The position numbers were made by a program, and so were the translations under genes. Shown in pieces: positions 32,802 to 52,159 of a DNA stretch of 64,000 bases. Positions within the stretch are counted from its first letter, which is position 1. Every line of letters starts with the position of its first letter. Source of the stretch: Terribacillus halophilus (GTDB lineage Bacteria > Bacillota > Bacilli > Bacillales > Amphibacillaceae); NCBI RefSeq assembly GCF_900162685.1, contig NZ_LT727828.1, forward strand, positions 62,001-126,000. The letters run 5' to 3'. The notes under the pieces are model-generated. The model did no database searches. It was not told where the DNA came from and worked only from the letters and a program-made list of their open reading frames with translations.

Positions 32802-32851
32802 GCTCTGACTAATAGCTAGTATGAAATCTCGTGCTGAAGTGCACATGAAAG

Positions 32852-32910
32852 CTAGCTGAAGATTTGCTGAAAGTGAAAAAATCGGGATTCTTCAGCTATT
32901 TTTCAGCTAG
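32852..32910. promoter_or_regulatory. Symmetric four-half-site response-regulator operator
   Basis: GCTGAA at 32855-32860 and 32866-32871; the inverted TTCAGC at 32891-32896 and 32902-32907. Each pair is spaced 11 bases start to start (one helical turn, as expected for OmpR-family dimers), and the two pairs are exactly symmetric about 32881. The outer arms extend to CTAGCTGAA / TTCAGCTAG. It lies between the ABC operon and the two-component genes. Confidence 0.6.
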
Positions 32911-32938
32911 TTGTTCCATAATAAAGAAAAAAGAAAGA

Positions 32939-33628
32939 ATGGATGACAGGATGGAGAAAATTAAAGTTCTAATCGTTGATGATGAAGAAACAATCACACA
33001 GTTTCTGATACTCGGTTTGCAGAATGAAGGATATATAGTAGAGAGTGCTGCTGATGGTATGCAAGGAATTGCTAAAGCAGAACAATTTGAACCGCATCTT
33101 GTTATATTGGATGTGATGATGCCGGGAATGGATGGTTTTGAGGTATGTCGTATGCTGAAGAAGAAAGGCAGAAAACTATCTATTATTATGCTGACTGCGA
33201 GAGATCAAGTAGATGACCGAATTAAAGGGCTGAATGACGGAGCCGATGATTACTTAGTCAAACCATTCAGTTTTGAGGAGCTGCTCGCTAGAATGCAAGC
33301 GCGTTTGCGTAATCAATTTCCCGAATTAGGTGATTCATTGCTAGCAGGTCCTTTGCGAATCGATGACCGGCGGAGGGAAGCATACTTGGAAGCAGAGGTA
33401 TTAAAGCTATCACCGACAGAGTATGAACTGCTTAAATATCTAACAATGAATCAAGGTATTGTTCTGAGCAAGGCGCTTATTCTAGATAAAGTATGGGGAT
33501 ACAGTTTCAATGGCGAAGAAAATATAGTGGAAGTGTATATTCGGTCTTTGCGAGAAAAGCTGCATGACAAAGATCGGCAGATGATTCGAACGATTCGGGG
33601 AGCAGGCTATCGCCTGGACGTGAAATGA
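32939..33628 (+). CDS. OmpR-family response regulator
   Basis: 229-residue DNA-binding regulator. The receiver domain has DDEE, the phospho-acceptor Asp in VILDVMMPGMDGF, T in MLTARD and K in LVKPFS; the winged-helix C-terminal domain ends GAGYRLDVK. The start is taken as ATG 32939 (MDDRMEKIKVL), but ATG 32951 is also possible. It overlaps the kinase gene by 4 bases. Because it diverges from the ABC exporter and the operator between them has OmpR-like direct repeats, it probably controls both its own operon and the exporter. Confidence 0.9.
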   Translation: MDDRMEKIKVLIVDDEETITQFLILGLQNEGYIVESAADGMQGIAKAEQFEPHLVILDVMMPGMDGFEVCRMLKKKGRKLSIIMLTARDQVDDRIKGLNDGADDYLVKPFSFEELLARMQARLRNQFPELGDSLLAGPLRIDDRRREAYLEAEVLKLSPTEYELLKYLTMNQGIVLSKALILDKVWGYSFNGEENIVEVYIRSLREKLHDKDRQMIRTIRGAGYRLDVK

Positions 33629-35058
33629 AAAAACGATTACAGCACGTAAAACCCAAAACGCTGAATAAACAGATTGTCGCCTTATCTTGTCTGATTTTAG
33701 CCATCATTCTAATCGTAGTCGGTATTCTGCAGTATATTCTAATGAAAGATTTTCTTTATCAAAATGAGGCAGATGCCATGCAGTCGCAACTGCATTCAAT
33801 TCCACCGGCATTCTTAAATGAAGATGCATCAGATATGCCCAAGCCATTTTTGTTTGATCGCTCATTGGCGAAAATAGATACATCCGGAAATTACACAGAT
33901 TTTTCAGATGAAACGAGTCTTTCCAGTCCTCACCTCGAACCGAAGGAGTTTCAGGGAGCTGTGAATAACAGAGATGATAAGGATGCGCAATATAGTGTCA
34001 CAGAAGATGAAGAGGGAAATGAGCAGCTTGTTGTTGTTATTGCAGAGGGTCGTTTCGGTGAAGTAACAGGCTATTTGCAGGCAGGGACAAAAACAGCACC
34101 ACTAAACGACGTCATCAATGGACAACTGCAAGTGTTCATCCTAATAGCTATCTTGGCATTAGGAGCAGGTATCTTACTATATACGCAAGTAATCAGAAAA
34201 GCACTAGATCCGCTGCATCGGATTATTCGCAAGGTGGAGCGAACAAGTGCTGAGAACTTGTCCGAACGGTTGGAAGAAGAAACAGAACAAGTTGAAATTA
34301 AACGGCTCACACTTGCATTTAACCAAATGGTAGAACGGATTGACCGTTCGTTTCAATCGGAAAGGGAAGCAAAGGAGCAGATGCAGCGTTTTATTGCAGA
34401 TGCTTCTCATGAATTGCGCACACCGCTTACTTCTATTCACGGATTTCTTGAAGTGCTGCTGCGTGGAGCTGCGAATAATCCAGACCAGCTGTATCCTGCC
34501 TTGGAGAGTATGCTAAAGGAATCACAGCGTATCAAAAAGTTAGTCGAGGATCTGCTGCTGCTTACTAAGCTTGATCAATCGGAAGGGCTGCAGGTACAGC
34601 AATTGAACTTGAACCGCTTATTAGAGGAAATGCAGCCGCATTTTGAAATGCTTGCTGGAAATCGGAAGTTGCTGTTTTTGATGAAGGAGCAGATTACAGT
34701 TGAGGCTGATAGCGATAAGTTAAAACAAGTACTGTTAAACTTGTTTTATAATGCTGTCCAACACACCAATCCAGAGCAAGGTGTCATTGAGATGCAATTG
34801 CAAACAGACAGTGATGCAGCTGAAATTCGTGTTCTTGATAATGGCTCAGGTATACCTGCTGCGCATTTGGCGCATATATTTGATCGTTTTTATCGCAGTG
34901 ACAGTTCGCGTACACGCCAGCAAGGCGGTGCAGGACTAGGTCTATCCATTAGTCATTCCATTATAAAAGCACATCAAGGGACACTTGAAGTAGAGAGCAA
35001 AGAAGGGAAAGGCACGACCTTCACCGTCCTGCTGCCGAAAAAAAGCAGGAACCCATAA
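33625..35058 (+). CDS. Sensor histidine kinase, partner of the preceding regulator
   Basis: 477 residues: membrane helix (about 18-40), an extracellular sensor of about 125 residues without recognised fold, second helix (about 168-190), HAMP, HisKA with His in ASHELRTPLTSIHGFLE, and HATPase with N box (NLFYNAVQHT), DNGSGIP and GAGLGLSIS. Together with the response regulator it forms a complete two-component system. It ends with a terminator shared with the convergent protease gene. The signal is unknown. Confidence 0.92.
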   Translation: MKKRLQHVKPKTLNKQIVALSCLILAIILIVVGILQYILMKDFLYQNEADAMQSQLHSIPPAFLNEDASDMPKPFLFDRSLAKIDTSGNYTDFSDETSLSSPHLEPKEFQGAVNNRDDKDAQYSVTEDEEGNEQLVVVIAEGRFGEVTGYLQAGTKTAPLNDVINGQLQVFILIAILALGAGILLYTQVIRKALDPLHRIIRKVERTSAENLSERLEEETEQVEIKRLTLAFNQMVERIDRSFQSEREAKEQMQRFIADASHELRTPLTSIHGFLEVLLRGAANNPDQLYPALESMLKESQRIKKLVEDLLLLTKLDQSEGLQVQQLNLNRLLEEMQPHFEMLAGNRKLLFLMKEQITVEADSDKLKQVLLNLFYNAVQHTNPEQGVIEMQLQTDSDAAEIRVLDNGSGIPAAHLAHIFDRFYRSDSSRTRQQGGAGLGLSISHSIIKAHQGTLEVESKEGKGTTFTVLLPKKSRNP

Positions 35059-48801: not shown

Positions 48802-48829
48802 TTGACATAGTATCCTATAGTGTTAGCAT
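48802..48829 (+). promoter_or_regulatory. Promoter of proCBA
   Basis: A perfect TTGACA (48802-48807), with TAGCAT (48824-48829) at 16 bases as the best -10 seen. No T-box or proline leader could be recognised between here and proC. Confidence 0.45.
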
Positions 48830-48877
48830 AGATAACTGTTAACAGAGATCGAAATATTCTAAAAGGAGCGATTAGGT

Positions 48878-49720
48878 ATCTTAACTAACAAACGGATTAT
48901 GTATGTAGGAGCAGGATCAATGGCAGAGGGAATGATTGCGGGGATGTGCGGATCAGACAGCTTGCAAAGTGAGCAGATTTTCGTGACAAACCGAAGTAAT
49001 GCTGTACGCCTTCGTGAGCTGCAGGAGCGTTACGGTCTAACCGCAATATCGCAAAGTGAGGTGGATTGGAACAGTATGGATGTAATCATACTGGCAATGA
49101 AACCGAAGGATCTTACTGCTGCATTGATCGATTTGCAAGACAAGGTTCAGGGAGAACAGCTGCTTATATCAGTAGCGGCAGGCATCCAGAACGAACAGAT
49201 CGAGCATTATCTTCCCAAAAATCAACCCGTTGTTCGTATTATGCCTAACACCTCCAGCACCATTGGGGAATCAGCTACAGCCATTGCACCAGGAAAACAT
49301 GTTTCAGCTGAGCAGCTTAACATGGTGACAGAACTTGTGGCGACCTTTGGTGAGGCGTTTGTTATTAAAGAAGAACAAATGGATGTATTCACCGGTATGG
49401 CTGGCAGCGGACCTGCTTACTTTTATAAGCTTATGGAACATTTCACGGAAACAGGTGTAGCTGCAGGATTTGACCAGGACACAGCCCGACAAATCGGAAT
49501 TCAGACGATGCTGGGAGCAGCCAGAATGTTAGTTGAAACAAAAGAAGACCCGGCTAGTTTGCGTAAGAAAGTTACTTCTCCAAATGGAACTACAGCAGCG
49601 GGTCTGGAAGCATTGAACGATGCTGGAGCAGGAGAGGCGATGACGAAAGCCATTCTTTCCGCAGCAGAACGATCAAATGAAATCAGTGATGAGTTAAAAA
49701 AACAATTACTGACACGCTAA
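48878..49720 (+). CDS. proC: Pyrroline-5-carboxylate reductase (ATC start)
   Basis: Final step of proline synthesis (P5C plus NAD(P)H to proline). 280 residues when started at ATC 48878, matching the 278 of B. subtilis ProI. The Rossmann motif is KRIMYVGAGSMAEGMI; the C-terminal GMAGSGPAYFYKLMEHF and VTSPNGTTAAGLE are conserved. The only canonical start, ATG 48899, would cut off the first strand (leaving three residues before GAG) and lies about 30 bases after the ribosome site AAAAGGAG (48861-48868). ATC lies 9 bases after it. No ATG, GTG or TTG occurs in frame between the upstream stop at 48860 and 48899. Confidence 0.85.
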   Translation: MLTNKRIMYVGAGSMAEGMIAGMCGSDSLQSEQIFVTNRSNAVRLRELQERYGLTAISQSEVDWNSMDVIILAMKPKDLTAALIDLQDKVQGEQLLISVAAGIQNEQIEHYLPKNQPVVRIMPNTSSTIGESATAIAPGKHVSAEQLNMVTELVATFGEAFVIKEEQMDVFTGMAGSGPAYFYKLMEHFTETGVAAGFDQDTARQIGIQTMLGAARMLVETKEDPASLRKKVTSPNGTTAAGLEALNDAGAGEAMTKAILSAAERSNEISDELKKQLLTR

Positions 49721-49768
49721 CGCCATTGCAGACACTCGGTCAAAAATCGAAAACTGGAGGAACTTATC

Positions 49769-50878
49769 ATTTCTAAACCAGCAACAGAATTAAAGCGTAT
49801 TGTCGTCAAGATAGGAAGCAGTTCGTTAACGAGTTTACACGGAGAGATTAGCCGCAAGAAGCTTGAAAAGCTAGTAGAGCAGCTTGTGAAGCTGAAGGAC
49901 AATGGTTATGAAGTACTGCTTGTTTCTTCAGGTGCAGTAGCAGCCGGCTACCGCAAACTAGGCTTTCTGGAGCGTCCGAAATCACTTCCGGAAAAACAAG
50001 CTGCAGCATCAATCGGGCAAGGGCTGCTGATGGAGGCTTATTCGGACCTCTTCCTGTCGCATGGCTATGTTGCGTCACAAATTTTGATTACCCGCGGCGA
50101 CTTCTCGGATGAAACTCGCTATAATAATGTTAGAAATACAATCAATGTATTAGTAGATCGAGGCATTATCCCGATCATTAATGAAAACGACACAGTAACA
50201 GTTGACAGGCTTCGTTTTGGCGATAATGATACACTTTCAGCAAAGGTAGCTGGCTTGGTTGGAGCAGATTTCCTTGCAGTCCTTTCTGATATCGATGGAT
50301 TGTACACGGATAACCCAGCCAAGAACCCGGAAGCGACACGCATTGAGCTTGTAGAAGCGATCACACCGGAAATAGAAGCTGCAGCAGGCGATGCTGGCAG
50401 TACGATTGGAACTGGCGGTATGAAATCCAAGCTGGATGCCTTCAAGATAGCGATGGCTTCTGGTATTAAGGGCTTTCTTGGTGAAGCAACAGCAGAAGAC
50501 ATCATCTATCGCTCTGTGCTCGGAGATGCGGAAGGTACTTATTTTGAGGCCAGTGAGGATATAGATTCCCTGAACCGTAAAAAACAATGGATTGCTTTTA
50601 ATTCCGGTCCCGTTGGTGAAATTATCATTAAGCATATTAATCAATCACCAATATTAATCAATTTGAGTGACATCCAAACAGTTAAAGGTAATTTCAAAAA
50701 AGGCGATGTTGTTCGAATTCAGAATGAAGCTGGAGAAAGAATTGGACTTGGCATCGTGAACCATGATGCATCCGAGCTTTGGCAGGCATTGGCAAGCCCA
50801 GTGAAGAATATGGAAGAGACGATTGTCGATCAAGAAGCATTTGTTTGTGAACTAAATCATACTGTACCGATTCAATAA
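49769..50878 (+). CDS. proB: Glutamate 5-kinase with PUA domain (ATT start)
   Basis: Phosphorylates glutamate, the first step of proline synthesis. 369 residues from ATT 49769: kinase domain with RIVVKIGSSSLT near the N-terminus (essential nucleotide loop), LVSSGAVAAGYR, INENDTV, LSDIDGLY and GTGGMKSKLDA, then a C-terminal PUA domain (about 280-365). Between the proC stop and GTG 49886 there is no ATG, GTG or TTG in frame, and starting at 49886 would delete the essential KIGSSS loop. GGAGG (49756-49760) lies 8 bases before ATT. CTG 49754 is upstream of that site. Confidence 0.88.
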   Translation: MSKPATELKRIVVKIGSSSLTSLHGEISRKKLEKLVEQLVKLKDNGYEVLLVSSGAVAAGYRKLGFLERPKSLPEKQAAASIGQGLLMEAYSDLFLSHGYVASQILITRGDFSDETRYNNVRNTINVLVDRGIIPIINENDTVTVDRLRFGDNDTLSAKVAGLVGADFLAVLSDIDGLYTDNPAKNPEATRIELVEAITPEIEAAAGDAGSTIGTGGMKSKLDAFKIAMASGIKGFLGEATAEDIIYRSVLGDAEGTYFEASEDIDSLNRKKQWIAFNSGPVGEIIIKHINQSPILINLSDIQTVKGNFKKGDVVRIQNEAGERIGLGIVNHDASELWQALASPVKNMEETIVDQEAFVCELNHTVPIQ

Positions 50879-50896
50879 TATACAAGGAGGAAAACC

Positions 50897-52159
50897 GTGG
50901 AGAACACATTAAAAGGACTAACAGTTGAAGAACAGGCAATCTCTGCCAAAGCAGCTGGCAAGCAGCTTGCACTTTTAACAACAGACGAGAAGAATGAAGC
51001 ACTGTTGGCGGTTGCCGATCAGTTGGCAAAGGACTACGAAATGATTTTAGCCTCAAATGATAAAGATATGCAGGCGGGGGAAGCAAAAGGCTTTGATGCG
51101 GCATTTCTGGATCGTTTGAAGCTCACAAGAAATCGTATCGAGGATTTTGCCAACGGATTGAAGGAAGTAGTTGACCTTGACGACCCGACTGGCAAAGTTA
51201 CGAGTGATTGGACGTTGGAAAATGGCTTACAGGTCAGCCGCATCACTGTACCATTGGGCGTTATCGGCATGATTTATGAAGCGCGTCCGAACGTGACTGC
51301 GGATGCAACTGGTTTAGCGCTTAAATCCGGTAACAGTATTGTTTTAAAAGGCGGTTCCTCTGCCATTCATACAAATACGGCTATCGTTGAAGTAATCAAG
51401 CGAGCGCTGGAACAGACGAAAGTGCCTGCGGAGGCAGTGCAGCTCATTCAATCAACAGATCGCAAAGAGACAGCGAAACTATTTACGATGAAGGAGCATA
51501 TTGATGTGCTTATCCCTCGCGGAGGTGCTTCGTTAATTCAAGCAGTTGTTGATTCAGCAACCGTACCGGTACTGGAAACAGGCGTGGGTAACTGTCATAT
51601 GTATATTGATAAAAGTGCAGAAGTGACAATGGCGCTGGCAACATTTTTGAATGCGAAAACAGATCGACCTGCTGTATGCAACGCGCTGGAAACGTTAATT
51701 GTTCACCGGGAGTGGCTAGAAGCGCATAAAGCAGACTTAGTGAAGGCATTACAGGATAATGGCATTCAAACACATGGTGATGAATCGGCGGTTCAGCTGC
51801 TTCCTGACTGCAAACCAGCGACAGAAAGCGACTGGTCCAATGAATATTTGAGCCTTGATGTTGCTGTGAAGGTTGTAGATTCAGTCGAAGAAGCGATTAA
51901 GCATATTGATCAATATGGAACAAAGCATTCCGAGGCCATTATCGCTGAAGATGACGAAGCAGTTAACTTATTTATGAAAACAGTTGATGCGGCGGCACTT
52001 TACCATAATGCTTCCACTCGGTTCACAGATGGGCATGCATTAGGTTTTGGGGCGGAAATCGGAATTTCAACCCAAAAACTGCATGCTCGCGGACCAATGG
52101 GATTGCCGGCTTTAACGACATATAAATATGTCATGAAAGGCAATGGCCAAACAAGATAA
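50897..52159 (+). CDS. proA: Gamma-glutamyl phosphate reductase
   Basis: Reduces glutamyl phosphate to glutamate semialdehyde, the second step of proline synthesis. 420 residues, the family length. Aldehyde-dehydrogenase fold with VPLGVIGMIYEARPNVTADATGLALKSGN, PRGGASLI and the catalytic Cys in RPAVCNALETLIVH; the C-terminal GFGAEIGISTQKLHARGPMGLPALTTYKYV is typical. The start is GTG 50897 preceded by AAGGAGG, 18 bases after proB. Thus proC-proB-proA form a complete glutamate-to-proline operon, likely important for osmoprotection. Confidence 0.97.
   Translation: MENTLKGLTVEEQAISAKAAGKQLALLTTDEKNEALLAVADQLAKDYEMILASNDKDMQAGEAKGFDAAFLDRLKLTRNRIEDFANGLKEVVDLDDPTGKVTSDWTLENGLQVSRITVPLGVIGMIYEARPNVTADATGLALKSGNSIVLKGGSSAIHTNTAIVEVIKRALEQTKVPAEAVQLIQSTDRKETAKLFTMKEHIDVLIPRGGASLIQAVVDSATVPVLETGVGNCHMYIDKSAEVTMALATFLNAKTDRPAVCNALETLIVHREWLEAHKADLVKALQDNGIQTHGDESAVQLLPDCKPATESDWSNEYLSLDVAVKVVDSVEEAIKHIDQYGTKHSEAIIAEDDEAVNLFMKTVDAAALYHNASTRFTDGHALGFGAEIGISTQKLHARGPMGLPALTTYKYVMKGNGQTR

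Follow-up and report, generated by a model that had tools for sequence, protein, structure and literature searches.

Putative ATC and ATT start codons in an osmostress-type proline operon of Terribacillus and in proH of Bacillus sensu stricto

How are the first two genes of a proline operon translated if neither has a canonical start codon where its conserved N-terminus needs one? The question was raised by the window, i.e. the whole stretch of 64 000 nt of Terribacillus halophilus DNA that was analysed, in which proC, proB and proA form an operon at 48878–52159 on the forward strand, with profile matches that were all above the cut-offs. The proC gene (proH-like, 48878–49720) was identified as a pyrroline-5-carboxylate (P5C) reductase (TIGR00112, 258.8 bits against a cut-off of 196.75), proB (proJ-like, 49769–50878) as a glutamate 5-kinase (TIGR01027, 379.6 bits against 186) and proA (50897–52159) as a glutamate-5-semialdehyde dehydrogenase (NF001221, 586.8 bits against 289). 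The last of these starts with GTG behind the Shine–Dalgarno (SD) sequence AAGGAGG (50884–50890, forward strand; pairing energy at the GTG −11.2 kcal/mol).

Start sites of proC and proB

The SD sequence of proC, AAAGGAG (48862–48868, forward strand), ends 9 nt 5′ of ATC 48878; the upstream stretch reads TAAAAGGAGCGATTAGGT and then ATC. The last upstream stop in this frame, TAA 48860–48862, lies at the SD itself, where the frame opens, and ATG, GTG and TTG are absent between the SD and ATG 48899, which leaves ATC (48878–48880) as the sole in-frame candidate near the SD. Pairing energy with the SD was −8.2 kcal/mol at ATC 48878 versus −1.1 kcal/mol at ATG 48899. The solved P5C reductases among those listed align from query residues 4–7 of ProC, so that a start at 48899 would cost ProC the initial residues of its cofactor fold. 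In proB, the in-frame stop at 49718–49720 is followed by no ATG, GTG or TTG before GTG 49886, which lies 39 codons past ATT 49769 and downstream of the KIGSSS motif. With a start at this GTG, ProB would lose a conserved part, since the solved glutamate kinases (or kinase domains) among those listed align from residues 5–9, and its SD pairing energy was −2.1 kcal/mol, compared with −9.3 kcal/mol at the ATC ATT stretch (49766–49771) behind the SD core GGAGG (49756–49760, forward strand).

An earlier note on this DNA had claimed that both genes lack ATG, GTG and TTG where the conserved N-terminus requires a start; this was confirmed for proC, with the SD 9 nt before ATC 48878, and equally for proB, with the SD 8 nt before ATT 49769. 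Beyond that note, a second in-frame candidate, ATC 49766, was found to adjoin ATT 49769 in proB. It stands 5 nt after GGAGG and is possible, but ATT 49769 is preferred because it shares the SD distance of proC, ATC 48878 and ATT 49769 each being 8 nt away when counted from the final G of the GGAGG register. Judged from sequence, translation of proC/proH from ATC and of proB/proJ from ATT is highly probable.

A changed anticodon of the initiator tRNA was considered and ruled out: a pattern search that left the first anticodon letter free gave three copies of initiator-type anticodon stems, all with CAU, so that a third-base mismatch must be tolerated at ATC and ATT. Folding of the leaders, 100 nt over each of the two starts, was ordinary (z 0.53 and 0.06). 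The infC gene, known elsewhere for non-AUG initiation, reads GGAGGTGG ATG ATT ATT AGC in all ten Terribacillus genomes; an ATG lies 3 nt downstream of the SD, and infC is therefore no clean positive control for non-AUG starts, whilst automatic annotation would choose the ATG.

The frequency of odd starts was assessed for the window, using the 57 ORFs for which two congeners gave a match of ≥100 bits. In three of them, no canonical codon among the first 70 had an SD pairing energy of ≤ −5 kcal/mol; these were proB, 32849–33628 and 33568–35058, of which the latter two have an ATG at the conserved N-terminus. This rule did not flag proC because its internal ATG has SD-like pairing. Thirteen window ORFs, mostly with doubtful starts and including 32849–33628 and 33568–35058, were also inspected by eye, non-exhaustively, and none was as clear a case as the pro genes.

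Conservation in Terribacillus and survey of the Bacillales

Relatives of the window proC at 84–94 % identity were found in T. aidingensis, T. saccharophilus and T. halophilus records. All ten Terribacillus operons have ATC in proC and ATT in proB, both 8 nt after the aligned SD, and the odd codons are thus conserved across the genus; ATG at these positions in related strains, which the earlier note had named as a sign of sequence errors, was sought and was absent from all ten. The codon preceding the ATT of proB is ATC in nine genomes and ATT in one. Position 48899 of proC is ATG in five genomes and TTG in the other five, and the distance to the alternative start of proB is 39 codons in three genomes (the window genome included), 19 in six and five in one. 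The GTG start given for proA in the earlier note was seen in 9/10 Terribacillus genomes, that of the window included, the tenth having ATG.

The genus also possesses a second proB copy and a second ProC-type gene, each in 10/10 genomes. In the housekeeping proB paralogue, the conserved N-terminus begins with ATG in all ten, and the ProI-type paralogue has ATG in the seven loci found by motif, a count that leaves out L019–L021 and with them the window genome's own copy. The proC and proB frames are intact and full length in the Terribacillus genomes, and proC keeps a single codon at only 47 of 172 invariant residues, i.e. it has undergone silent change. As a test of whether the start codons are held as codons, the comparison within Terribacillus has little power: one codon is also kept in 3 of the 13 invariant Ile columns of proC and in 8 of the 26 of proB (start column included).

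The wider survey comprised a family search of 159 genomes and an order search of 397 genomes drawn evenly, of which 169 matched, four of them Terribacillus. A further 92 loci were read, 76 from the order search (26 returned and 50 hand-picked across genera) and 16 from the family search; these are part of all matches, L048–L051 of the family search lying outside the reading. Nine of the 92 belong to Bacillus sensu stricto (genus g88), leaving 83. A canonical, properly SD-spaced start was present just before the conserved motif in 82 of these 83 proH-type loci (ATG in 57, TTG only in 17, GTG only in seven and GTG/TTG in one). The tally counts as canonical L036, L088, L092, L132 and L140, for which the automatic pick gave ATT, ATC or ATA with TTG, GTG or ATG present; L067–L069, whose proC starts are canonical, stand outside it. 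The sole exception was the proC of L157 (genus g63), with an ATT start after GGAGGAG and no canonical start; this locus lies outside both Terribacillus and Bacillus sensu stricto, and its family is represented by one genome in the collection. In L088 and L092, proC has ATC directly before GTG behind the SD (GAG CGT GCA TAC ATC GTG); this ATC is better SD-spaced than the adjoining GTG, which may thus not be the start.

The proH start in Bacillus sensu stricto

Genus g88 was recognized as Bacillus sensu stricto by the published B. subtilis proH primer (PMC5539093), which matches L116 exactly, and by the B. licheniformis primer stretch (PMC3858371), which occurs in L183. ProH was found above threshold in 43 of its 44 genomes, and all 43 were read. 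Other rows of the genus are presumably pumilus-type Bacillus. At the position of the Terribacillus start, proH has ATC in 42/43 genomes and ATT in one (L177), always exactly nine bases after GAG, and a canonical well-spaced start was found in 0/43. Loci with this conserved start candidate include L116, L126, L136, L137 and the series L160–L197. The nine bases between GAG and the start vary (in Bacillus ATGTTACCG, ATGTTAAAG and AGGATCAAT; in Terribacillus CGATTAGGT). None of the nine invariant Ile columns in Bacillus ProH keeps a single codon (44 rows, one genome twice), and with these columns drifting the ATC is held as a codon. Codon and SD spacing are both conserved across species, in 10/10 Terribacillus and in proH of 43/43 Bacillus sensu stricto. 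The proJ (proB) gene of Bacillus starts with GTG or ATG, so that only Terribacillus has the second odd start. The earlier note's picture of two odd starts in this operon therefore stands for both Terribacillus genes, but the ATC of proC is not specific to Terribacillus, being common to the B. subtilis group.

The published cloning primer for B. subtilis proH is reported to begin the gene at ATGCGAACAAAAAAGCGAACAAAGGAGAT, upstream of the SD (PMC5539093). This in-frame ATG is present in 8/43 genomes; elsewhere, as far as the site can be aligned, it carries ATA or does not lie in frame, and in L171 the frame is interrupted by TGA. A second ATG, overlapping the SD, occurs in 27/43 genomes and is AGG or TGG in the remaining 16. 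Both ATGs are absent from 16/43, and in 21/43 the frame upstream of the SD, followed for about 40 codons or as far as a stop, contains no canonical codon. The only start candidate common to all 43 is the ATC/ATT.

In ProH trees that excluded the start codon, Terribacillus and Bacillus sensu stricto fell on one side of a branch. Its SH-aLRT was 86 in a quick tree with 102 rows; in a careful tree with 54 rows, which omitted long-branch rows (L157 and ten others), support was 91/94, and the branch was present in 92 % of 200 bootstrap trees. The remaining loci from Terribacillus' own family fell on the opposite side. The grouping of Terribacillus ProH (L002–L011) with Bacillus sensu stricto and not with its own family hints at operon transfer. 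The simplest reading, with moderate support from an unrooted tree, is one origin of the odd proH start, by transfer or by deep shared descent.

Osmostress operon type and explanations for the start codons

A SigA-type promoter is predicted at 48802–48829 (forward strand), with TTGACA (48802–48807), a 16 nt spacer, TG (48821–48822) and TAGCAT (48824–48829). The layout TTGACA-N16-TAACAT or TAATAT also precedes proH in L161 and L183 (both Bacillus sensu stricto), and −35, −16 and −10 elements were present, by sequence layout, in L002, L161 and L183; the promoter pattern search gave no match in L011 and L098. The reductase–kinase–dehydrogenase gene order together with separate housekeeping copies is that of osmostress proHJ(A) operons, and gene order, second copies and promoter layout together match the osmotically induced proHJ/proHJAA operons, for which induction at high osmolarity is reported in B. 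licheniformis (PMC3858371). On these sequence features, the Terribacillus proC–proB–proA operon looks like an osmostress proline operon of the proHJA type. An Rfam search at gathering level matched no family in L002, L070 or L011, and hence no T-box was called in the stretch around the housekeeping proB (L070). The proBA operon of B. subtilis has a proline T-box.

The proHJ and proHJAA operons of Bacillus (PMC3858371, PMC5539093) share with Terribacillus the gene order, promoter layout, housekeeping copies and position of the proH ATC. They differ in that the published proH start is an upstream ATG and in that proJ starts with GTG or ATG, not ATT. A literature search, with subscription papers mostly outside it, found no non-AUG start for proH or proJ.

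Conserved non-canonical starts are already known as a kind (infC, sigR, ccpN). The earlier note had cited infC as the known example; it does have the same kind of start, but it is not the sole case, given sigR (GTC), ccpN (AUA) and cvfC1 (AUU). In infC, which starts with AUU, AUC or AUA and is autoregulated, IF3 is likewise expected to discriminate, but infC feeds back on IF3 itself, whereas the proline enzymes have no such loop. The ccpN and cvfC1 genes are reported to combine an AUH start with a strong SD at fitting spacing and conservation over species, the AUA of ccpN being conserved between Staphylococcus aureus and B. subtilis (PMC13009471). They encode a repressor and a small protein, whereas in Terribacillus the case concerns two enzyme genes that follow one another in an operon; for ccpN and cvfC1 initiation has been measured, whilst the pro starts are predicted from sequence. 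In Streptomyces, sigR is described as a stress gene likewise held down by a genus-conserved non-canonical start (PMC5472188), but it differs in its GTC codon, in encoding a sigma factor for oxidative stress and in an IF3 effect that was shown experimentally: IF3 is reported to repress sigR, and the Streptomyces infC itself to start with ATC (PMC5472188).

Going by published work in E. coli, Streptomyces and S. aureus, translation of proH and proJ is expected to be IF3-sensitive. In S. aureus, AUU and AUA starts are reported to give approximately 10 % of AUG output in poor medium, and in rich medium up to 30 % for the AUA of ccpN with the AUU of cvfC1 unchanged (PMC13009471); these analogue data concern AUU and AUA, not AUC. 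In vitro, more IF3 is reported to lower fMet initiation at AUU with CAU, AUC with CAU being left out there (PMC10158994).

Selection for weak start codons in this operon is judged probable from the sequence comparisons. The strong SD, 8 nt off in the aligned register, would set the ordinary fMet-tRNA(CAU) on a third-base-mismatched codon; the weak codons would be kept by selection, and enzyme yield per mRNA would lie below the AUG level. The strong inducible promoter would thereby be kept from draining glutamate into proline when it is unneeded, and expression would be left sensitive to IF3 and to the state of the initiation machinery. We infer that initiation is low, depends on the SD, is sensitive to IF3 and so damps the operon, and the whole reading, selected weak starts lowering the yield of an inducible osmostress proline operon, is favoured with fair confidence. 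A pathway that has to produce much proline would hardly be expected to use a low-yield start, except with a highly active enzyme; a high Vmax is reported for B. subtilis ProH (PMC5539093), so that a low enzyme yield could be affordable.

The non-AUG codons might instead be used but be neutral relics, the start having been weakened once and compensated by a strong SD at no gain. This is unlikely: whilst both proC and proB have a strong SD, and the single origin that is simplest on the tree implies few independent events, the ATG that is one base away is absent in 53/53 genomes, the third base is conserved, in contrast to the drift at invariant Ile columns of Bacillus, and proA switched from GTG to ATG once within Terribacillus. 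Quite doubtful is a translational osmotic gate, in which the initiation machinery would itself be the stress sensor. Hyperosmotic stress would raise cytoplasmic K+ and crowding, or lower the IF3-to-ribosome ratio, discrimination against the third-base mismatch would relax, and proH (in Terribacillus also proJ) would be better translated just when the cell requires proline, in addition to the control by the osmotic promoter.

Starts elsewhere, i.e. at ATG/TTG 48899 in proC and, in Bacillus, at the SD-overlapping or the published upstream ATG, are very unlikely. The 48899 codon is canonical in all ten Terribacillus genomes and would cut only seven residues, and 27 and 8, respectively, of the 43 Bacillus genomes have the two upstream ATGs; but 48899 has no SD (−1.1 kcal/mol) and its use would cut into the first cofactor-fold strand, neither ATG is present in 16 of the 43, and proB offers no alternative for 39 codons in three Terribacillus genomes, including that of the window. 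Sequencing errors or decaying genes can be dismissed, the same codons being present in ten Terribacillus assemblies (five matching named records) with the same kind in 43/43 Bacillus sensu stricto, and the frames being intact and full length with silent change in proC.

Selected weak starts in an inducible proline operon would add to the few bacterial conserved non-canonical starts that are known, since the osmostress proline operon appears to use one such start in Bacillus and two in succession in Terribacillus. If this is true, the published start of B. subtilis proH, which lies before the gene's own ribosome-binding site, and the constructs derived from it need revision.
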